Source of the DNA: Lachnospiraceae bacterium
GTDB taxonomy: Bacteria; Bacillota; Clostridia; Lachnospirales; Lachnospiraceae
NCBI GenBank assembly: GCA_024698715.1
Contig: JAILRA010000075.1
Coordinates: 1-64,000 of the forward strand
Length of the DNA stretch: 64,000 nucleotides
Direction: 5' to 3'
In this document: one piece after another, positions 27,211-61,033 of the stretch
How the letters are laid out: each line of letters starts with the position of its first letter
Numbering within the stretch: the stretch's first letter is position 1
Notes under the pieces: model-generated
Seen by the model: only the letters and a program-made list of their open reading frames with translations
Told to the model about the DNA's origin: nothing
Database searches by the model: none
Program-made: the position numbers and the translations under genes

Positions 27211-30009
27211 ATGGAATTGGAGCAGGAAAAAAAGCCTACCGGTTATAAAAAAATCAGATATTTTCTGATAGTTGAAAATATACTCATTGTTCTTGCATTT
27301 CTTCTCTTTGCGGTCGGAGTATATTATATTTTCACATTCTCAAGTTTTACTTGGTTTGCCGTTGCATACTTTATTTTAGGCGGCGCATTCTTTTTGTTCG
27401 GCGTTACCATTGCATTTAAAATGGTCAAGGCCTTTCAACGTGACGATTTACCCGTATTTTCCAATATGACCGAATCCGAAGATGTCGATCCCGAAACAGG
27501 ATTGCCTTATTTTGATTCTTTTACGACCGAAGCCGAATCACAGCTGACTTTGTCCATGTCGGATGTTTACCTTGCGACTTTCGAGATTGAAGGTCTTGAG
27601 CATTTAAGACATTTTGTAGGATATCAGAAAGCTGCCGACACCATGGCCGAGATCGGTTCCATCCTCAAAATGTACAAGAAGAGAATGGGTGATCGTTATG
27701 TCACACTCGGATGCAAGTCGGGTCATGAATTTGTTGTCATGACAAATGAGGTCGATTCAAAAGACATTCAGAGATATCTTCATGAAATTATGAATGAAAT
27801 CAATGAAATTCTGTTAAGACTTCCGACTACGGAAAACTTCAGTGTTTACTGCGGATATTCTTCGTCGACTCAGGGCAAAATGATTGAAGATATGATTCAG
27901 TTCACTAATTTTGCCGTAATGGAAGCGGCAATGTTCAAAAAGAGTGAACCGCATTATTTCTCTCAGGATGCATACAGACGTCAGGAAACAGAATACATCA
28001 AAGACGATAAAATCAGAAAGATCCTCGACGGAAACGAGCTTCAGTACAATTTCCAGCCCATTGTTTCTGCAAAGACCGGAAAGATTTATGCATATGAAGC
28101 TTTGATGCGTACCAATAAAGAAATAGGTTTTTCACCGACCGATGTTCTTGAACTTGCCGAACGTCAGGACAGACTTTACGAAGTCGAGCATTATACATTC
28201 TACAATGTTGTGAAGATTATGCATGAGAATTCATCAATCTTCGAAAACCGCAAGCTTTTTATCAATTCTATTCCGACGGTTATAATCAAAGAAGATGAAT
28301 TTAACGAACTGTATGCCCAGTATAAAGACGTGATGAAGAATCTCGTTATTGAGATTACCGAAAACGGAATGCAATCCGAAGCATCGTGCGAGACTGTACA
28401 TAAATACATGAAAAAATCCGGCTGCGAACTTGCACTCGATGATTACGGTACCGGTTATTCGAATGCTTCGACATTGCTTAACAATTCACCTCATTATCTT
28501 AAGGTCGATCATTCACTTATCATGGGTATTGATACCGACTCCAAGAAACAGCAGCTGGTGAGCAATGTAATCTCATTCGGTAACAATCACGGTATGAAAA
28601 TACTTGCAGAAGGTGTTGAGACCGCCGATGAACTTCAGATGGTCATTCAGCTCGGATGTCATCTTATACAGGGCTTTTATACCGCACGTCCCGCAAAGAT
28701 AATTGCAGATACTATTCCGGCGGAAGTTGAAGAAGAAATCATGGCGATCAATCTTAAACTTGCCAAGCTTGCTCTTGAGAACAAATCTTATACACCGAGC
28801 AATTTCGAAACGATTTCGCTTATCAATCTTGCTCTTGATTTTTATTCTCAGATTATCATCGAGCAGCCTTCGGTTAATCTCGTCGGTATGAAGAGCAAAA
28901 AAGAAGTTAATATGTCAATTAAGATTCCCGACAATATTGAGACGGTTATAAATCTTAAGGATGTCAATATCCGAGGCAGGGATAATCCCGTCATCGAGAT
29001 TGGTGAGAATTCATTTGTAACTCTTGTTCTTGAAGGAAACAATATTTTCTCATATGAGGGTATCAAGGTTCCCACAACATCAAGACTCAATATTCAGGGT
29101 AAAGGAAATCTTACCATACGTGTGGATCACAACAACGGTATCGGTATCGGTTCCGGTTCTGATGAAAAGATACCTTACGGCGATATCTGCTTTGAAGGAA
29201 GCGGAACGCTTCGTATCGAAGCCAACTCCGATCAGGCGTTTGCCATCGGCGGATATCTGGCAGATGAGAATTCGAGGATCAAGATCGATTCCGGTAATCT
29301 TGAGATCATCGTTAACGGTTCCAAGACGGTTGGTCTCGGTTCCATGAAGGGATTCACTCATATTACGGTAAATCAGTCGCATGTGGCTATTTCCTCAATG
29401 GGTGCGGATGCCATCGGTATCGGTTCCATGGAAGGTAAAGTAGATATCAATATCAGTGCGGATGTTGAAATGGATGCTTCGGGAAGCAGGGCAACGGGTA
29501 TCGGTGTTCTCCAGTACGGCAAGGGAAGCATACATGTTCATTCCGGATTCGTATCCTGCAATGTTCATTCGATGAGCGGTATGGGTATCGGTTCGCTTGA
29601 CGGCGATATGGATATCCGAAGCAGTGCCGAACAGATATTTATTTATGTCGAAGGTTCTGAAGTCGGAGGCATCGGAACATATCACGGATACGGTATCACC
29701 AGGATACAGAACGGTGTTCATAAAGTTGTACTGCTTGCGGCCAATCCCGTTTCGATGGGCGGTTCAAAAGGCAGACTTGAGATCTCCGGCGGAAATATAT
29801 ACGCAGATCTTTCCAATTCACCCGATCCAGTCAACCAGTTCGATGTACCCGTATTCAAGAAAGAAGTTACCGGCATTGAACTTTATTCCAAGAAGATCGA
29901 GACCGAAGAAGGTTCGTATCAGTATATGGCATCGGCTTCGAAGCTTTTCGACAATATCTTTGTATACATTCCGAAGTATTGCAACGAGCTTGAGCCCAAT
30001 GTGATCTGA
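27211..30009 (+). CDS. Membrane degenerate-GGDEF/EAL protein with C-terminal glycine-repeat beta-helix
   Basis: 932 residues. Two helices (about 15-40 and 48-72) form a membrane hairpin, leaving both ends in the cytoplasm. A GGDEF-like domain (about 95-260) has S170-G-H-E-F in place of GGDEF, so it should not make c-di-GMP. The EAL domain (about 265-510) keeps the residues needed for hydrolysis: E296 in 'YEALMR', Asn in 'FINS', Glu in 'EITENG', 'LDDYGTGYS', Lys in 'LKVDHS', 'AEGVE' and Gln in 'IQGFYTARP'. The tail (about 560-880) holds some eight ~28-residue repeats ending G-[IL]-G-[SGVT] ('GIGIGSG', 'AFAIGG', 'TVGLGS', 'AIGIGS', 'GMGIGS', 'VGGIGT'), like beta-helices of surface adhesins. It has its own promoter and terminator. 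Confidence 0.85.
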   Translation: MELEQEKKPTGYKKIRYFLIVENILIVLAFLLFAVGVYYIFTFSSFTWFAVAYFILGGAFFLFGVTIAFKMVKAFQRDDLPVFSNMTESEDVDPETGLPYFDSFTTEAESQLTLSMSDVYLATFEIEGLEHLRHFVGYQKAADTMAEIGSILKMYKKRMGDRYVTLGCKSGHEFVVMTNEVDSKDIQRYLHEIMNEINEILLRLPTTENFSVYCGYSSSTQGKMIEDMIQFTNFAVMEAAMFKKSEPHYFSQDAYRRQETEYIKDDKIRKILDGNELQYNFQPIVSAKTGKIYAYEALMRTNKEIGFSPTDVLELAERQDRLYEVEHYTFYNVVKIMHENSSIFENRKLFINSIPTVIIKEDEFNELYAQYKDVMKNLVIEITENGMQSEASCETVHKYMKKSGCELALDDYGTGYSNASTLLNNSPHYLKVDHSLIMGIDTDSKKQQLVSNVISFGNNHGMKILAEGVETADELQMVIQLGCHLIQGFYTARPAKIIADTIPAEVEEEIMAINLKLAKLALENKSYTPSNFETISLINLALDFYSQIIIEQPSVNLVGMKSKKEVNMSIKIPDNIETVINLKDVNIRGRDNPVIEIGENSFVTLVLEGNNIFSYEGIKVPTTSRLNIQGKGNLTIRVDHNNGIGIGSGSDEKIPYGDICFEGSGTLRIEANSDQAFAIGGYLADENSRIKIDSGNLEIIVNGSKTVGLGSMKGFTHITVNQSHVAISSMGADAIGIGSMEGKVDINISADVEMDASGSRATGIGVLQYGKGSIHVHSGFVSCNVHSMSGMGIGSLDGDMDIRSSAEQIFIYVEGSEVGGIGTYHGYGITRIQNGVHKVVLLAANPVSMGGSKGRLEISGGNIYADLSNSPDPVNQFDVPVFKKEVTGIELYSKKIETEEGSYQYMASASKLFDNIFVYIPKYCNELEPNVI

Positions 30010-48724: not shown

Positions 48725-50905
48725 ATGGCGAATGAAGTGAAATCTGACGGCTTTTTTAAAAGATATCTTAAACCTATATTGTTTTATTTGCTTTTTGTTC
48801 TGGTAAATATTGCATTAAACAGGCTTGTAAATTATTTTCATCTTCCTCTTTTCCTGGACAGTATCGGCACTATTTTAGCCGCTATTCTGGGAGGTTATCT
48901 TCCCGGTATCATAGTCGGATATACTACAAATATAATCAACTGTACATCGGCTCCCTCAACAGCATATTATGCTATTCTGAGTGTTCTCATAGCCCTTACC
49001 GCAAGATTCTTTTATGACAGAGGCTTTTTTGACAAATTCCATAAGACTATTGTTACAATTCCCGTTTTTGCGTTTATCGGAGGATTTTTAGGGTCTATTT
49101 TAACATATTTTATGTACGGCTTTGGCATGGGAGAAGGCATATCTTCTTCTTTTGCGCAGTCACTGCTTGCCAGCGGTAAAGTAAATGTATTTTTTGCCCA
49201 GCTTATTTCCGACGTAACGATCGACCTTATCGATAAAGCCATTACGGTTATAGTTGTATTTATACTTCTAAAGATAATACCCGAGAAATTTGCTTCTATG
49301 ATAGCTCTGGTTAACTGGAAACAGAGACCTTTAAGAAAAGAAGAGATCATTGAAGTTAACAAAACAACCAGCAGGAAAGCGCCTCTCAGAACCAAGATCA
49401 TCGTTATCATCGGTTCGGTTATGATAATCGTTGCTCTGGTAACAACAACGATCAGTTATATCCTTTATCAGCAGTTTGCGATCAAACAGTATACTTTTAC
49501 CGCAAAAAATGTTGCGAGCCTGGTTGCAAGTACTGTTGATGGCGACAGAGTTGATGCTTATTTCGAAGAGGGTCCCGGTTCCGTCGATTATGCCGATACG
49601 GTAAACAAACTTAAAAAGATTTACGAAAGTTCTCCTTACATAAAATATATTTATGTTTATAAGATACTTCCTGACGGATGTCATGTTGTGTTCGATCTGG
49701 ATACCGAAGACATGGAAGGCGGTGAACTTGGTGATTTCGTGGAATTTGACGAATCATTTATGGATAAAGTTCCTGCGCTTTTATCAGGTCAGCCTATTGA
49801 TCCAATTATTACAAATGATACATTCGGCTGGCTCCTTACAGATTACGAACCCGTATATGATTCCACTCATAAATGTGTATGCTATGCATGTGCGGACATT
49901 AGCATGGAAGAAATTACTTCAAACGGAATAAGTTTTCTTGTGAAGGTATTTTCTCTTTTCCTTGGATTTTTCATATTCATACTGGTATTCAGTATGTGGC
50001 ATATGCAGTATCATCTGACTTTCCCTCTGGATGCCATGACATATGCGGCAAATCATTTTGCACACAGCTCGGATGAAGAACTGAAAAACGGTGTTGAAAG
50101 ATTAAACGATCTGAAGATCTTGACCGGTGACGAAATTGAAAGTCTGTACGAATCATTGTCGAAAACCTTCGGCGAAACGGTCGGATATATTGATGAAGTT
50201 AAAACAAAGGGCAAGGAAATTTCCAAGATGCAGAACGGTCTTATTTATATAATGGCCGATCTTGTGGAAAGCCGTGACAAGAGTACGGGCGATCATATCA
50301 GAAAAACCAGTGCTTACGTTAATCTGATCTTAAATAAGCTTAAAGAAAAAGAAGGATTTAAAGATATACTTACTGATGAATATATTTACGAAGTTTCAAA
50401 TTCATCTCCTTTACATGATGTCGGAAAGATCAAAGTATCCGATCTGATACTTAATAAACCCGGCAGACTTAATGACGAAGAATTCGAAAAGATGAAGATG
50501 CATACTATCGAAGGCGAAAAGATCATAGATAATGCAATGAAACTTTCATCAACTTCGGATTATCTTAAAGAAGCCAAGAATATTTCGACATATCATCATG
50601 AAAAATATGATGGTTCCGGATATCCTTACGGATTAAAGGGCGATGACATTCCTTTATCGGCTAGAATCATGGCTGTGTCAGATGTTTTTGACGCTCTGGT
50701 TTCTCCCAGAGTATACAAACCGGCCATGAAATTCGAAGATGCTATGAATATCATTAAAGACGGATCAGGAAAACATTTCGATCCCATGATCGTTGAAGTA
50801 TTTGTCGAAAATGAGGAAGCTGTTCGTCAAATTGCCGAAGAACATAAGAGAGTGTTCTACGATCAGGATAACGATGACGATAAAAAAGAGGAAAAGAATG
50901 AATAG
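48725..50905 (+). CDS. HD-GYP domain membrane receptor (probable c-di-GMP phosphodiesterase)
   Basis: 726 residues. The N-terminal ~200 residues hold about six helices resembling an ECF-transporter substrate-binding (S) component-like domain. A helix near 225-250 then leads to an extracellular sensor domain (about 250-400), another helix (about 405-425), a HAMP-like linker and a cytoplasmic HD-GYP domain (about 500-710). HD-GYP residues seen are 'ESRDKSTGDHIRKTSAYV', H564-D565 in 'LHDVGKI', 'MHTIEGEKII', 'YHHEKYDGSGYPYGLKGDDIP' and 'ARIMAVSDVFDAL'. Such domains hydrolyse c-di-GMP. GAAGGGAG precedes the ATG. A DUF2225 gene follows 23 bases later. The 188 bases upstream are very AT-rich and show no clear structure. 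Confidence 0.88.
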   Translation: MANEVKSDGFFKRYLKPILFYLLFVLVNIALNRLVNYFHLPLFLDSIGTILAAILGGYLPGIIVGYTTNIINCTSAPSTAYYAILSVLIALTARFFYDRGFFDKFHKTIVTIPVFAFIGGFLGSILTYFMYGFGMGEGISSSFAQSLLASGKVNVFFAQLISDVTIDLIDKAITVIVVFILLKIIPEKFASMIALVNWKQRPLRKEEIIEVNKTTSRKAPLRTKIIVIIGSVMIIVALVTTTISYILYQQFAIKQYTFTAKNVASLVASTVDGDRVDAYFEEGPGSVDYADTVNKLKKIYESSPYIKYIYVYKILPDGCHVVFDLDTEDMEGGELGDFVEFDESFMDKVPALLSGQPIDPIITNDTFGWLLTDYEPVYDSTHKCVCYACADISMEEITSNGISFLVKVFSLFLGFFIFILVFSMWHMQYHLTFPLDAMTYAANHFAHSSDEELKNGVERLNDLKILTGDEIESLYESLSKTFGETVGYIDEVKTKGKEISKMQNGLIYIMADLVESRDKSTGDHIRKTSAYVNLILNKLKEKEGFKDILTDEYIYEVSNSSPLHDVGKIKVSDLILNKPGRLNDEEFEKMKMHTIEGEKIIDNAMKLSSTSDYLKEAKNISTYHHEKYDGSGYPYGLKGDDIPLSARIMAVSDVFDALVSPRVYKPAMKFEDAMNIIKDGSGKHFDPMIVEVFVENEEAVRQIAEEHKRVFYDQDNDDDKKEEKNE

Positions 50906-55029: not shown

Positions 55030-55072
55030 AGATTGATTCTTTTTTGATAAGAATATGATTGGAGGGTTACAG

Positions 55073-56293
55073 GTGAAAAGAGTATTTCTTATAGTTTTGG
55101 ACAGTTTCGGGATAGGAGAAGAACCCGATGCAGATCTGTTCGGTGATGCAGGTTCAAATACAATAAGATCCTGTGCATCGAGCACATTTTTTGATATGCC
55201 CAATATGGCCGAAATGGGTCTTTTTAATATAGACGGAGTAGATGTTTCCTTTACATCAAAAGATATTAACGGTCTTGATGATGAAAAGAAGGCATTTTAT
55301 TCGAAGATAAACGATGATATCAAGAATGGCAGTTACAAAGCTCTGATCGCACGTATGAGAGAAAAATCCATGGGTAAGGATACAACCATTGGACACTGGG
55401 AAATCGCGGGAATGGTTTCACCCAAACCCATGCCTACTTATCCGAACGGTTTTCCTAAAGAAGTAATTGATGAGTTTGAGAAGAGAACCGGAAGAAAAGC
55501 GATAGTAAATGCTACATATTCGGGCACCAAGGTTATAAATGATTACGGTGATGAACATGTTAAGACAGGCGCTCTGATTGTATATACATCTGCAGATTCC
55601 GTATTTCAGATCGCTGCTCATGAAGAGGTTGTTCCTCTTGAGCAGTTATATGAATACTGCAGAATAGCGAGAGAAATTCTTCAGGGTGAACACGGTGTGG
55701 GAAGAGTTATAGCAAGACCTTTCTTAGGTGAGAGCGGAAACTATTACAGAACTCCTCACCGTCATGATTTCTCGTTGATTCCGCCTAAGGATACAATGCT
55801 TAATATATTAAAGAATGCCGGAAAAGATGTTTTGTCGGTAGGCAAGATCTACGATATTTTTGCCGGTAACGGAATTACCGAATATGTTTATACCGAATCG
55901 AATGAAGACGGAATTAACAAGACATTAAAATGGATGGACAGAGATTTTAACGGACTCTGCTTTACCAATCTTGTTGATTTTGATATGCTTTACGGTCACA
56001 GAAGAGATGTGGACGGATATTCAAAAGCACTGGCATATTTCGATGAAAGACTTCCTGAGATGTTAGATAAACTCGGAGATGAAGACTGTCTTATGATTAC
56101 TGCCGATCATGGCTGCGATCCGGCTTATACAAAGACCACGGATCATACAAGAGAGTACATTCCTTTTATCTGTTACGGAAAGAATATTAAAGCAGAGAAT
56201 ATGGGTACAAGAGAAACGTTTGCGGATATCGGTGCTACCGTTCTTAATCTGCTTGGAGTTGAAGGAAAACTTGACGGAGTATCCATGGTCTGA
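55073..56293 (+). CDS. deoB: Phosphopentomutase
   Basis: 406 residues. It moves phosphate between C1 and C5 of ribose or deoxyribose, linking nucleoside breakdown to central metabolism. It belongs to the alkaline-phosphatase-like superfamily, with two metal ions bound by residues in 'VLDSFGIGEEPDADLFGD', 'DTTIGHWEIAG' (with the phospho-Thr), 'DFDMLYGHRRD' and 'TADHGCDP..TTDHTREYIP'. The start is GTG 55073, seven bases after GGAGGG; an in-frame ATG at 55055 lies on top of that site. It stands alone with its own promoter. Confidence 0.95.
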   Translation: MKRVFLIVLDSFGIGEEPDADLFGDAGSNTIRSCASSTFFDMPNMAEMGLFNIDGVDVSFTSKDINGLDDEKKAFYSKINDDIKNGSYKALIARMREKSMGKDTTIGHWEIAGMVSPKPMPTYPNGFPKEVIDEFEKRTGRKAIVNATYSGTKVINDYGDEHVKTGALIVYTSADSVFQIAAHEEVVPLEQLYEYCRIAREILQGEHGVGRVIARPFLGESGNYYRTPHRHDFSLIPPKDTMLNILKNAGKDVLSVGKIYDIFAGNGITEYVYTESNEDGINKTLKWMDRDFNGLCFTNLVDFDMLYGHRRDVDGYSKALAYFDERLPEMLDKLGDEDCLMITADHGCDPAYTKTTDHTREYIPFICYGKNIKAENMGTRETFADIGATVLNLLGVEGKLDGVSMV

Positions 56294-56413: not shown

Positions 56414-56950
56414 ATGCTGCGTTTAAGACCATATAAACCCCAGGATGCAAAATATATAATTTCATGGCTTAAAAATGAAAATGTATTTGAATTTTGGGGC
56501 GGAAAATTATTCGGTAATTATCCGATTAACGAAGAGATAATCAATAACAAGTATTTTAACAATAACGGGGACTGTGCTGAAAGTGATAACTTTTATCCTT
56601 TTACCGCGTTTGACGAAAGCGGAGTTGTCGGACATTTTATTATGCGTTATTTAAACGGCGACAATAAACTTTTACGTTTCGGCTGGGTAATTGTTGACGA
56701 TACGAAACGCGGTAAAAGATACGGTCAGGAAATGCTTAAACTTGGTCTTATATATGCTTTTGATGTTTTAAAAGTCGATAAGGTTAACCTTGGTGTTTAC
56801 GAAAATAATCCTCTTGCTTTAAGCTGTTATCTTAAAACAGGCTTTCATGAATATGAAGGTGCAAGAGAACATTCTGATGAAGTCGGCGGAGAGCAGGTCA
56901 GAATAATCGAACTGGAAATATCAAAATCTGAATTTAAAGCTGAAATGTAA
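56414..56950 (+). CDS. GNAT-family N-acetyltransferase (RimJ/RimL-like)
   Basis: 178 residues. The acetyl-CoA loop is 'VDDTKRGKRYGQEMLKLGL' (about 95-113), and 'NLGVYENNPLALSCYLKTGF' is the usual C-terminal GNAT signature. Substrate unknown. It starts with a CGAGGA site. The 120 bases upstream hold two small hairpins (AATCTG/CAGATT and CTGTG/CACAG) of no clear role. It precedes the GGDEF-EAL-GNAT fusion gene by 92 bases. Confidence 0.85.
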   Translation: MLRLRPYKPQDAKYIISWLKNENVFEFWGGKLFGNYPINEEIINNKYFNNNGDCAESDNFYPFTAFDESGVVGHFIMRYLNGDNKLLRFGWVIVDDTKRGKRYGQEMLKLGLIYAFDVLKVDKVNLGVYENNPLALSCYLKTGFHEYEGAREHSDEVGGEQVRIIELEISKSEFKAEM

Positions 56951-57042: not shown

Positions 57043-59319
57043 ATGTTTATAAACAGGCTCAATCAGCTTTATAAACCAAAAAGAATTCTTTATTATATCG
57101 ATGCTGAAAATGTAGATATTGTTTTATTCGGCAAAGGTAAAACGGACGAAAGAATAAGCAAATATTCAAATACTTTCGGAGTATATGATTACCCCGGTTT
57201 ATTTTACGTTGATTCTTTGAATAAGCCTGTTATCGGTATTGAATTCAGGATTGATGACGAAAGGATTGATTACCCGAAGAATCTTTCATCCGTTGTTCTT
57301 GATGAAGCTTTTTATTATTCGATTGAAGTAGACAGCGATACCGATGTGGAAATTAATAAACTGAAAGAACTGTTTGTCTGCATATCCAAAGATGATGATG
57401 CTCACAGACAGTATGACGATCTTTCGATTTGCGATAATCCCCGTGTTATAAGCGTATTTTACCATGACGAAAAATTCAGAATTCTTTATGAGTGGAAACT
57501 TGATGAAGACAGGGCTATCGATGTTATAAATGATAATTTTGAGAAGTTTGATAAGGAAATGCTTTATAAAACTTCGTTTTTCGATCCCATTACGGGACAT
57601 TATAACTGGAATCATCTTGTTCCTTTTCTTGAAATGCCCATGGATGCGGGAATCAGAGATTACGCATTTGCGCATTTTGATATTAAGGAATTCAGAATCT
57701 TTAATGAAGTTTACGGTCATATCGCCGGCAACAATGTTTTATCCAAAGTGGTTAAGGCAATGAATGATTCGGATTTCATTTATACGAGTGCAAGATGTCA
57801 TAATGATAACTTTGCGATGATAATACGTGATATGCCGAATGAGGAACTTATTAAGAAACTTGAGGAGTTCTTTGATAATCTTTCTCATCTTGATGAAGAT
57901 CCCGATTATAAGATTTGTTACCGATGTGGGGTTGTTCCGATGCCGAGGTCCCTGCTTTTCGGAAACAGAGTTGCGGATGCCGGAAAGCTTGCTCAGAAGA
58001 TGGGTACAACAACCAACAGAACGGATATCGTTGTGTATACTGATGAAATGCACGATGACATTCTATGGGGGAATTATATAAAGGCATATGTTGATTCTGC
58101 AGTTAAGAATGATGAATTTCTTGTTTATCTGCAGCCTAAATTCGATATAGAAACCGAGAAGATAAAAGGTGCGGAAGCTCTTATAAGATGGAATTACAAG
58201 CACAGAACTTTGCTTGCTCCATATAAGTTTATCCCGTATTTTGAAAAAGACGGTACCATAGCAAAGATTGACGATATCGTACTTCGTAAAGTCTGTGAAG
58301 CTCTTGCCGAATGGAAAAAAGAAGGAAAGCCTCTTTATCCGATTTCCGTGAACCTTTCCAGAACAAGAATGTATGATGAAGGTCTGGTCGATTATCTTGA
58401 GAGCATAGTGGATTCTTACGGCGTCGATCATTCATATATAGATTTTGAACTTACCGAGAGCGCCACATATGACGATACCGAACAGATGATATATGTTTTG
58501 CTTAAACTCAGAGAGAAACATTTCGAACTTTCCATGGATGATTTCGGTACAGGATACTCATCACTTTCGCTGCTTACTCAGATGCCGATGGATACTTTAA
58601 AAATCGATAAGAGTTTTGTCGATAAGGTTGGTACGGAAAATGACAGGGAAAGCGACTTGGCTGTTATAAGACATATTATTTCGCTTGCAAAAGAACTTGG
58701 ATTCGTATGTCTCGCTGAGGGGGCCGAAGAAAAGAAGCAGGTTGAAAGGCTTAAGGAACTCGGATGCGATATTATTCAGGGATATTATTTCAGCAAGCCT
58801 ATACCGCTCGAAGAATATGAAAGTAATTATCTAAATCCATACGAGGTATCTCCGGCATGCGAAGAAGACAGAAGCGAACTTATATCTCTTTATCGTGCAC
58901 AGGTAGGAGCCGAAGGATGCCCCTGGAGCGAAGAATATCCGTCAAACGAGACGATCGATTTTGATCTTTCCAGAGATTCTCTGTTTGTTCTGAAACATAA
59001 CGGCAAAATAATTGCTGCGGCCTCCATCGAGGAAGATGAGGAAGTCAATAAACTTGTATGCTGGAATAAAGATCTCGAACCCGAAGGCGAATTCGCAAGG
59101 ATATGTGTAAATCCCGAATACAAGAAAAAAGGTATCGGAAGGATGATCCTTCGCTATATTGAAGAAGAGATGAAAAGAAGGGGATATAAAGGCATTCATA
59201 TCATCGTTAACAAGAAAAACCTGAATGCACTTCGCCTTTATGATTCCTTCGGCTACATAAACGTCGGCGAATGCTTTATGTACGAGCAGGATTTCTGGTG
59301 TTATGAGAAAAAATTGTAA
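57043..59319 (+). CDS. Degenerate GGDEF - EAL - GNAT fusion protein
   Basis: 758 residues, soluble. An unrecognised N-terminal region (about 1-170) is followed by a GGDEF-like domain (about 175-335) in which the signature is H253-N-D-N-F, so no cyclase activity is expected. The EAL domain (about 345-595) looks complete: E378 in 'GAEALIRW', Asn in 'SVNLSR', Glu in 'ELTESA', 'MDDFGTGYSS', Lys in 'LKIDKS', 'LAEGAE' and Gln in 'IQGYYFSKP'. The C-terminus (about 605-758) is a GNAT acetyltransferase with 'ARICVNPEYKKKGIGRMIL' and 'VNKKNLNALRLYDSFGY'. Joining c-di-GMP breakdown to acetyl transfer in one chain is unusual. GTTGAGGA precedes the ATG. Confidence 0.9.
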   Translation: MFINRLNQLYKPKRILYYIDAENVDIVLFGKGKTDERISKYSNTFGVYDYPGLFYVDSLNKPVIGIEFRIDDERIDYPKNLSSVVLDEAFYYSIEVDSDTDVEINKLKELFVCISKDDDAHRQYDDLSICDNPRVISVFYHDEKFRILYEWKLDEDRAIDVINDNFEKFDKEMLYKTSFFDPITGHYNWNHLVPFLEMPMDAGIRDYAFAHFDIKEFRIFNEVYGHIAGNNVLSKVVKAMNDSDFIYTSARCHNDNFAMIIRDMPNEELIKKLEEFFDNLSHLDEDPDYKICYRCGVVPMPRSLLFGNRVADAGKLAQKMGTTTNRTDIVVYTDEMHDDILWGNYIKAYVDSAVKNDEFLVYLQPKFDIETEKIKGAEALIRWNYKHRTLLAPYKFIPYFEKDGTIAKIDDIVLRKVCEALAEWKKEGKPLYPISVNLSRTRMYDEGLVDYLESIVDSYGVDHSYIDFELTESATYDDTEQMIYVLLKLREKHFELSMDDFGTGYSSLSLLTQMPMDTLKIDKSFVDKVGTENDRESDLAVIRHIISLAKELGFVCLAEGAEEKKQVERLKELGCDIIQGYYFSKPIPLEEYESNYLNPYEVSPACEEDRSELISLYRAQVGAEGCPWSEEYPSNETIDFDLSRDSLFVLKHNGKIIAAASIEEDEEVNKLVCWNKDLEPEGEFARICVNPEYKKKGIGRMILRYIEEEMKRRGYKGIHIIVNKKNLNALRLYDSFGYINVGECFMYEQDFWCYEKKL

Positions 59320-59332
59320 ACTTGAAAATATT

Positions 59333-59367
59333 ACCGATAAATAGTATCATTTATCGGTACTGTTTTT
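59333..59367 (+). terminator. Intrinsic terminator after the fusion gene
   Basis: Perfect 10-bp stem ACCGATAAAT / ATTTATCGGT with loop AGTATC, followed by ACTGTTTTT. Confidence 0.85.
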
Positions 59368-59437: not shown

Positions 59438-61033
59438 GTGGGTAATTTTGACAAAGAAATAGAAAGAAGAAGAACATTTGCTATCATATCCCATCCCGAT
59501 GCCGGTAAAACAACGCTGACGGAAAAATTTCTTTTATACGGAGGTGCGATCAATCTTGCCGGAAGTGTTAAAGGAAAGGCCACTGCAAGACATGCCGTTT
59601 CAGACTGGATGGAAATAGAAAAGGAAAGAGGTATTTCCGTAACATCATCCGTTTTACAGTTTGAATATGACGGATATTGCGTTAATATTCTGGATACACC
59701 GGGACATCAGGATTTCTCAGAGGATACATACAGAACTCTTATGGCTGCCGATTCGGCAGTGATGGTGATTGATGCATCAAAGGGTGTTGAGGCTCAGACG
59801 AGAAAGCTTTTCAAAGTCTGCGGTATGAGAGGAATACCTATTTTTACATTTATCAATAAACTCGACAGAGATGCTCTCGATACTTTTGAACTTCTCGATC
59901 AGATCGAAAACGAACTCGGAATAGCAACATGTCCGGTTAACTGGCCCATAGGTTCAGGCAAAGCTTTCAAAGGTGTATATGACAGACATAATGAGAAAGT
60001 TGTAATGTTTTCGGATACGGAAAAAGGAACCAAAGAAGGTAAATCCTGGGAAATAGATATCAAGTATGAAGACACTCTGAAGGAAGCTATAGGTGAAGAT
60101 GCATATTCCACACTTAAGGATGAGATCGAACTTCTTGATGGTGCGGCTGCCGAATTTGATCTGAAAAAAGTCAGGGAAGGCAAGCTCACACCCGTATTTT
60201 TCGGATCTGCTCTGACCAATTTCGGTGTTGAGATCTTTTTGAACAATTTCCTTTCGATGTCTACGACTCCGCTTCCGAGACAGAGTGATATCGGTATCAT
60301 CGATCCAATGGAAAATGAGTTTTCTGCATTTGTATTTAAGATCCAGGCCAACATGAACAAGGCGCACCGTGACAGGATCGCTTTTATGAGGATCTGTTCG
60401 GGTAAATTCGAGGCCAGCAAGGAAGTGTACCATATGCAAGGCGGTAAATCTTTAAGATTATCCCAGCCCCAGCAGATCATGGCTGACGACAGAAAGATAC
60501 TCGATACCGCATATGCCGGGGATATAATCGGTGTATTCGATCCCGGAATCTTTTCGATCGGCGATACTCTGACTACTGCAGGCAGGAAATTCAATTACGA
60601 AGGAATTCCCACATTTGCACCTGAGCATTTTGCGAGAGTCAGACAGATGGATACCATGAAAAGAAAACAGTTCATGAAAGGAATCACACAGATCGCACAG
60701 GAAGGTGCTATCCAGGTATTCCAGGAATTTAATTCCGGTATGGAGGAGATCATTGTCGGAGTAGTAGGCGTCCTCCAGTTTGAAGTACTCAAATACAGAC
60801 TTGAAAATGAATATAATGTTGAGATCAGAATGGATATGCTTCCTTATGAGCATATCAGATGGATCGAGAACAAAGATGAGATAGATGTCGTAAAACTCAC
60901 AGGCACTTCCGATATGAAAAAAGTAAAAGATATGAAGGGGAATCCTTTGCTTTTGTTCATAAACGAATGGAGCATAGGCATGACGAAGGACAGAAACAAG
61001 GATCTTGTACTGTCCGAATTCGGAAGGAATTAA
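59438..61033 (+). CDS. prfC: Peptide chain release factor 3
   Basis: 531 residues, the expected length. A GTPase that removes RF1/RF2 from the ribosome after termination. G1 'SHPDAGKTTLTE' (about 17-28), the switch 'RGISVTSSVLQFE', G3 'DTPGHQDF', G4 'NKLDRD', then domains II and III. The start is GTG 59438; it has a weak upstream site (GTGAGA). It ends exactly where the next gene begins (TAA then ATG with no gap). Confidence 0.96.
   Translation: MGNFDKEIERRRTFAIISHPDAGKTTLTEKFLLYGGAINLAGSVKGKATARHAVSDWMEIEKERGISVTSSVLQFEYDGYCVNILDTPGHQDFSEDTYRTLMAADSAVMVIDASKGVEAQTRKLFKVCGMRGIPIFTFINKLDRDALDTFELLDQIENELGIATCPVNWPIGSGKAFKGVYDRHNEKVVMFSDTEKGTKEGKSWEIDIKYEDTLKEAIGEDAYSTLKDEIELLDGAAAEFDLKKVREGKLTPVFFGSALTNFGVEIFLNNFLSMSTTPLPRQSDIGIIDPMENEFSAFVFKIQANMNKAHRDRIAFMRICSGKFEASKEVYHMQGGKSLRLSQPQQIMADDRKILDTAYAGDIIGVFDPGIFSIGDTLTTAGRKFNYEGIPTFAPEHFARVRQMDTMKRKQFMKGITQIAQEGAIQVFQEFNSGMEEIIVGVVGVLQFEVLKYRLENEYNVEIRMDMLPYEHIRWIENKDEIDVVKLTGTSDMKKVKDMKGNPLLLFINEWSIGMTKDRNKDLVLSEFGRN

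Follow-up and report, generated by a model that had tools for sequence, protein, structure and literature searches.

A probable lineage-restricted fusion of a predicted c-di-GMP phosphodiesterase with a GNAT acetyltransferase domain in a Lachnospiraceae bacterium

The 64,000-nucleotide stretch of DNA analysed here as a whole (the window; contig JAILRA010000075.1 of a Lachnospiraceae bacterium, genome G000) holds a gene in which an EAL phosphodiesterase domain runs directly into an acetyltransferase domain of the GNAT family. The original prediction, made from the DNA alone, proposed that the level of c-di-GMP, or the occupancy of the EAL domain, could gate acetylation. The locus raises the question of whether the two halves form a signalling switch, or whether they are two activities that share one polypeptide.

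The fused protein (P0001) is encoded by a single ATG-started open frame of 758 codons and a stop (Table 1), exactly as the unbroken frame had first been read. A Pfam search, suggested at that time as a check, matched all three domain families, GGDEF, EAL and Acetyltransf_1. Active diguanylate cyclases carry the signature GG[D/E]EF. The GGDEF domain of P0001 fails this signature and has HNDNF instead, in agreement with the dead domain originally described; of the 12 aligned homologues from the genus, 10 also have HNDNF and 2 have DNDNF. In the EAL domain, the ten positions that we take to be catalytic, metal-binding or substrate-binding sites (E378, N437, E469, E472, D499, D500, K520, E559, E562 and Q579) all carry the expected residue, which bears out the original reading of this domain, and the same is true throughout all 12 genus homologues. 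The EAL motifs align with those of solved EAL proteins, best with 5m3c, 4rnh ('Motility regulator'), DosP and MucR. Judged by these residues, the EAL half probably hydrolyses c-di-GMP.

Two other genes of the window, both on the forward strand, encode EAL or HD-GYP-type domains. The gene at 27211-30009 encodes a 932-residue protein with an EAL domain by Pfam (176 bits) and with membrane segments and a GGDEF-like region recognised by eye; its long C-terminal GIGS-rich repeats look like a beta-solenoid and have no Pfam match above the cut-off. At 48725-50905, a membrane part resembling the S component of an ECF transporter (75.9 bits with the NCBIfam CD3073 model, below its cut-off of 180) is joined to an HD-GYP-type domain, a possible input of a vitamin-type ligand to c-di-GMP breakdown.

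The GGDEF, EAL and GNAT domains listed originally are all present, but the N-terminal 155 residues were overlooked. An AF2 model of residues 1-190, based on a 12-row alignment and computed separately from that of the GNAT end, reached a mean pLDDT of 80.2 and a pTM of 0.75. When this model was searched with Foldseek, the top 25 PDB matches, judged by their titles, all belonged to the GyrI/BmrR superfamily (the C-terminal part of EcmrR, BmrR, BrlR, SbmC/GyrI, SOUL/HEBP, CtaZ and similar proteins), with E values of 4e-4 to 2e-2 and modest query TM scores of 0.32-0.49. At the level of sequence, the GyrI-like Pfam model gave zero matches at E<=5 in five of five proteins, and none of the solved-structure sequences that match residues 1-155 is of the GyrI-like kind. 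With moderate confidence, we regard residues 1-155 as a GyrI-like small-molecule sensor placed ahead of the phosphodiesterase, and this fold prediction suggests that they may represent an undescribed sensor family preceding GGDEF-EAL.

The GNAT half matches Pfam PF00583 (Acetyltransf_1) at residues 619-738, with 60.5 bits against a cut-off of 20.7. Modelled by itself it reached a mean pLDDT of 96.1, and Foldseek confirmed the GNAT fold, with TM scores of about 0.7-0.8 against solved GNATs; the C-terminal GNAT domain originally proposed is thus plausible. The acetyl-CoA loop of GNATs follows the motif Q/R-x-x-G-x-G/A. The corresponding loop in P0001 is KKKGIG: the loop is present, as originally noted, and both glycines are kept, but the first position is K where Q is found in 90% or more of the 46-row subfamily alignment. 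The relatives of this GNAT by profile and fold are mixed, and include RimI and N-alpha-acetyltransferases as well as small-molecule GNATs.

Table 1. Features of the fused gene and its surroundings (window coordinates), and GNAT fusions at other loci of Lachnospiraceae (locus coordinates).
Feature	Position	Strand	Remarks
deoB-like gene	55055..56293	+	left landmark
Separate GNAT gene	56414..56950	+	Acetyltransf_3 (Pfam); 92 bp upstream of fused CDS
Fused CDS, 758 aa	57043..59319	+	GyrI-like fold, degenerate GGDEF, EAL, GNAT
Predicted GyrI/BmrR-C/SOUL-like ligand-binding fold, residues 1-155	57043..57507	+	AF2 and Foldseek
Degenerate GGDEF, residues 179-281	57577..57885	+	Pfam PF00990, 38 bits
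EAL domain, residues 351-586	58093..58800	+	Pfam PF00563, 211 bits (cut-off 31.3)
EAL-GNAT junction, residue 598 / GNAT residue 599	58834..58839	+	no linker
Complete GNAT domain, residues 599-758	58837..59316	+	kin to stand-alone gene of the genus
Terminator-like inverted repeat, then T run	59333..59358	+	after fused stop; direct reading of sequence
prfC-like gene (release factor 3)	59438..61033	+	right landmark; G009 copy 95% identical
GNAT C-terminal on NadD	L065
GNAT C-terminal on two other GNATs	L070, L071
GNAT C-terminal on GNAT-like domain	L073		partner just below Pfam cut-off
GNAT C-terminal on glyoxalase-type domain	L076
GNAT N-terminal on CDP-alcohol phosphatidyltransferase	L080		more distant subfamily member
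GNAT N-terminal on PP-loop ATPase	L081		more distant subfamily member
TPR-HD(GYP-like)-GNAT, G394	L081 2539-4677	-	further copies L167, L168

The join itself is abrupt. Residue 598 is approximately where relatives end, strand 1 of the GNAT model starts at residue 600, and the entire EAL domain is retained together with the entire GNAT domain minus its start. Since there is no in-frame ATG, GTG or TTG between 58701 and 59142, the GNAT lacks a separate start codon at the join. The separate GNAT gene reported shortly upstream is also present, and the outer neighbours are, judged by their sequence, presumably deoB and prfC.

Among the 31 genomes of the genus sample, including G000, homologues of the GGDEF-EAL part were found at 12 loci in 11 other genomes, with identities of at least 44% (the lowest, 44%, at L053), and the homology covers the whole part except in G019, where it is confined to the last three quarters. 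At 11 of the 12 loci the protein ends 0-9 residues beyond the EAL domain, and in the DNA downstream of these (387-1515 bases) GNAT matches were no better than E 0.16. The twelfth locus, in G009, holds the closest homologue found, 86% identical over the GGDEF-EAL part. G009 and G000 have in common the gene order deoB, upstream GNAT, EAL gene and prfC, the upstream gene being the same Acetyltransf_3 neighbour (L002 907-1440). Behind the EAL domain of G009, the same GNAT begins in frame but soon meets a stop; an internal deletion follows, and then the final codons of the GNAT. This remnant was detected as two tblastn pieces (E 3e-10 and 1e-7); it has its 3' end in common with G000, and in the alignment a stretch matching the terminator-like repeat sits behind it. 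An intact GNAT behind EAL occurs in 1 of the 31 genomes, G000 only.

The join is real and ancestral. The identical junction in G000 and G009 makes an assembly join unlikely and places the fusion before the split of the two genomes. Although the G000 assembly consists of 108 contigs, the probability that it has artificially united two genes is negligible, given that G009 has the same junction, decayed, with matching flanks on both sides. The original prediction had named two findings that would undo it. Instead of a frameshift or an assembly join, the decayed junction of G009 was found; a GNAT missing from all close homologues is nearly the case, as none of the 12 has it intact and only the nearest one carries it, in broken form. 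In several other genus members deoB stands immediately before prfC, and the cassette therefore looks like an insertion in the G000/G009 branch. When an EAL+GNAT query was searched against 391 genomes of the class, including that of the window (best 4 or fewer candidates per genome scored), no other match among those listed spanned the join. A full-length GGDEF-EAL homologue without GNAT was observed in another family (L183, genome G826). At 67% identity, and 74% in the EAL part, it is as close as most of the genus homologues, a hint that the phosphodiesterase gene was transferred horizontally.

The GNAT also exists as a free gene of about 160 residues, 64-72% identical to the fused domain, in 12 of the 30 other genus genomes. 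In all, it is present in 15 of 61 genomes searched, namely these 12, G000 and two outside the genus. Five genomes (G008, G009, G010, G042 and G045) have a GGDEF-EAL homologue plus a stand-alone GNAT elsewhere in the genome, and in the 46-row tree the fused GNAT clusters with the stand-alone copy of G045 (support 98/93). The G009 genome has a whole stand-alone GNAT besides its broken fused one, while in G000 the fused copy is the single match for this GNAT at E<=1e-20. On the simplest reading, the fused copy performs the ancestral GNAT job in G000, although the assembly is 89% complete and a second copy is possibly missing from it. Reciprocal loss at a syntenic site was considered and set aside: the non-GNAT matches of the contig bearing the stand-alone G009 copy are scattered over several G000 contigs and revealed no empty site.

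Over the GGDEF-EAL part, G000 and G009 differ with a dN of 0.08 and a dS of 1.25; dS is near saturation, so that estimates of age and dN/dS are approximate. Neutral evolution of the 160 GNAT codons was simulated simply, with uniform point changes and indels uncounted: at 0.4 substitutions per site the stretch stayed free of stops in 15 of 5000 runs, and at 0.5 in 8 of 5000. Between the fused GNAT and stand-alone copies, dN/dS was 0.06-0.17 in 4 of 13 pairs, the other nine being saturated. The retention of the GNAT in G000 thus seems to exceed the simple neutral expectation, and selection seems to keep the fusion. Of 74 sites at which the eight other representatives are invariant, the fused GNAT differs at 8, as compared to 1-5 changes at 67-71 sites when stand-alone copies were left out in turn (this jackknife covered 9 of the 18 aligned GNATs). 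By these counts it appears to be constrained, yet evolving somewhat faster than the stand-alone copies; as the changed sites include the first loop residue, the GNAT half may be on its way towards a different or reduced activity.

The choice of partner was placed in context by a search of 397 genomes of the family at E<=1e-12, in which the best 9 or fewer candidates per genome were scored: among the matches listed, 8 of the 43 places of this GNAT subfamily lie in frames of at least 300 residues. For a control, the Acetyltransf_3 GNAT encoded next to the fused gene, the figure was 11 of 76 among the matches listed in 299 genomes (best 11 or fewer candidates per genome scored), and two of these 11 long frames have an inner stop. 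Frame lengths run between successive stops, and the actual partners were inspected in the first set. The idea that the subfamily is unusually fusion-prone was dropped, the difference between 8/43 and 11/76 being unconvincing; fusion seems common for GNATs in Lachnospiraceae. Besides that of the window, the seven other long frames were inspected, and they join the GNAT to varied partners (Table 1). In the tree, which comprises 46 hand-picked rows and in which 17 of 43 inner branches are weak, the eight fused rows require 7 changes on the best tree, and well-supported branches force at least 3, implying several separate fusion events; this scatter of the fused label does not exceed that of shuffled labels (mean 7.6). 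With partners so varied, and with long frames about as frequent in the control GNAT family, the presence of an EAL partner says little in favour of gating. The NadD-like fusion (L065 865-1977, + strand) is flanked by genes that we take, from their sequence, to be an ObgE-like gene and an HD (YqeK-like) gene.

A further protein, TPR-HD(GYP-like)-GNAT, is full length in G394, G063 and G068, which represent three genera. Besides G394, it is whole in 2 of the 14 matching genomes among 299 searched, and the GNAT of the G394 protein falls just below the Pfam cut-off. Together with the EAL-GNAT fusion, it indicates that within the family a GNAT tail was added to phosphodiesterase-type domains on two or more occasions. 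In G394 its gene adjoins the GNAT-PP-loop ATPase fusion. The flanks of 69 stand-alone GNAT loci revealed no informative cross-genus neighbour except one, another GNAT near 8 loci of two genera (1 of the 8 scanned), and the largest neighbour clusters around these loci resemble antisense frames.

Taken together, the evidence points to a gene fusion of a rather ordinary kind, and not to a demonstrated new signalling switch. We think it probable that a ligand-sensing phosphodiesterase has been joined end to end with a functional, probably autonomous GNAT, in a fusion restricted to this lineage. The phosphodiesterase gene would have lost its stop codon beside a copy of the formerly free GNAT, which would have lost its start codon as they fused. 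As we infer it, the GyrI-like domain would sense a small ligand, with the degenerate GGDEF as a regulatory or dimerising part; the complete EAL would hydrolyse c-di-GMP; and the GNAT half would independently continue to acetylate its ancestral substrate, now in the quantity and at the location of the phosphodiesterase, and would not particularly require gating by c-di-GMP. Its autonomy is suggested by the free gene in 12 of 30 genus genomes, by the diversity of the fusion partners and by the scatter of fusions on the tree. The linker-free join counts against this explanation, as it could favour coupling. If the EAL or the N-terminal domain switched the GNAT in response to c-di-GMP or another ligand, P0001 would be one receptor with two outputs; the absence of a linker, the full-length TPR-HD(GYP-like)-GNAT of three genera and the two c-di-GMP-binding GNAT proteins in print, PixB (PMC8316039) and HfsK (PMC5362036), all fit such gating. 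We nevertheless consider it unlikely. The fusion is intact in a single genus genome and broken in G009, the partners of this GNAT are diverse, long frames are about equally common in the control family, and no other class-genome match among those listed spans the EAL-GNAT join. An EAL domain normally degrades its ligand, and would need slow turnover to serve well as a receptor. Even in PixB, according to the available text of the paper, the acetyltransferase domain suffices alone in growth (PMC8316039). The more specific version, in which the c-di-GMP-bound state of EAL in a ligand-sensing phosphodiesterase would gate a rigidly attached acetyltransferase, is distinctly unlikely.

The GNAT could instead be a passenger in slow neutral decay, with little function left in G000. 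The breakage in G009 and the excess of changes at conserved sites, the loop residue among them, are what such decay would leave; the rarity of stop-free survival in the neutral simulation, a dN/dS well below 1 in the four computable pairs, the 60.5-bit Pfam match with a model pLDDT of 96, and the fact that the fused GNAT is the only copy found in G000 all run the other way, and we hold this explanation to be fairly unlikely. It is very improbable that the fusion is a fixed scaffold without gating, from which the GNAT acetylates near c-di-GMP signalling, its target being the phosphodiesterase itself or a partner. A join with zero linker on one transcript would suit this arrangement, GNATs often acetylate proteins, and RimI and N-alpha-acetyltransferases are among the profile relatives of solved structure; yet the profile names no substrate, small-molecule GNATs match as well, and apart from the GNAT near 8 loci of two genera the comparison of 69 flanks pointed to no informative neighbour across genera.

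What the fusion means depends on which of these explanations applies. If the GNAT were gated, P0001 would be a c-di-GMP degrader that also acetylates, and the link known from PixB and HfsK would then include catalytic phosphodiesterases as well. If the dual-output receptor were true, then together with TPR-HD-GNAT it would imply that the breakdown of c-di-GMP has been connected to acetylation repeatedly in Lachnospiraceae. If it is ungated, the locus is a natural experiment, a fusion that predates a species split, whole in G000 and broken in G009 beside a free copy. The pair shows the gain and loss of parts in multi-domain signalling proteins, and it is a warning that the choice of partner in GNAT fusions is weak functional evidence.

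A link between c-di-GMP and GNAT proteins, which the original prediction did not know to be described, is already in print, as PixB (PMC8316039) and HfsK (PMC5362036) attest in the parts of these papers available to us; the EAL-GNAT architecture itself was not found in the open-licence literature of PubMed Central. PixB of Myxococcus xanthus, a c-di-GMP-binding protein, combines two PilZ domains with a GNAT; the authors of the study speculate that acetyltransferase activity is raised by c-di-GMP during development, and during growth the acetyltransferase domain is sufficient without c-di-GMP binding, as far as the available text goes (PMC8316039). P0001 resembles PixB in having c-di-GMP-binding domains and a GNAT in one polypeptide, and differs in that these are PilZ receptor domains in PixB and an EAL phosphodiesterase domain in P0001; PilZ is absent from the Pfam families matched by P0001 at E<=0.1. 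HfsK of Caulobacter crescentus is likewise a GNAT-family protein tied to c-di-GMP, which moves it off the membrane. Unlike P0001, it is FemX-like, with tandem GNAT domains, and itself binds c-di-GMP, perhaps via C-terminal arginines, and an EAL domain is not among the features described in the available part of the paper (PMC5362036). The solved GGDEF-EAL phosphodiesterases (for example 4rnh, 'Motility regulator', and the MucR EAL, 5m1t) have the same EAL motifs as P0001, from which they differ by its degenerate HNDNF, GyrI-like N-terminal fold and GNAT tail. The stand-alone GNATs of the genus (for example those of G045, G015 and G009) maintain their 64-72% identity over the whole domain, but are free proteins with their own start, and their loop opens with Q in place of the K of the fused copy. 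The TPR-HD-GNAT proteins (L081, L167 and L168) resemble P0001 in combining a phosphodiesterase-type signalling domain with a C-terminal GNAT; they have HD instead of EAL and an unrelated N-terminus, and are full length in three genera.
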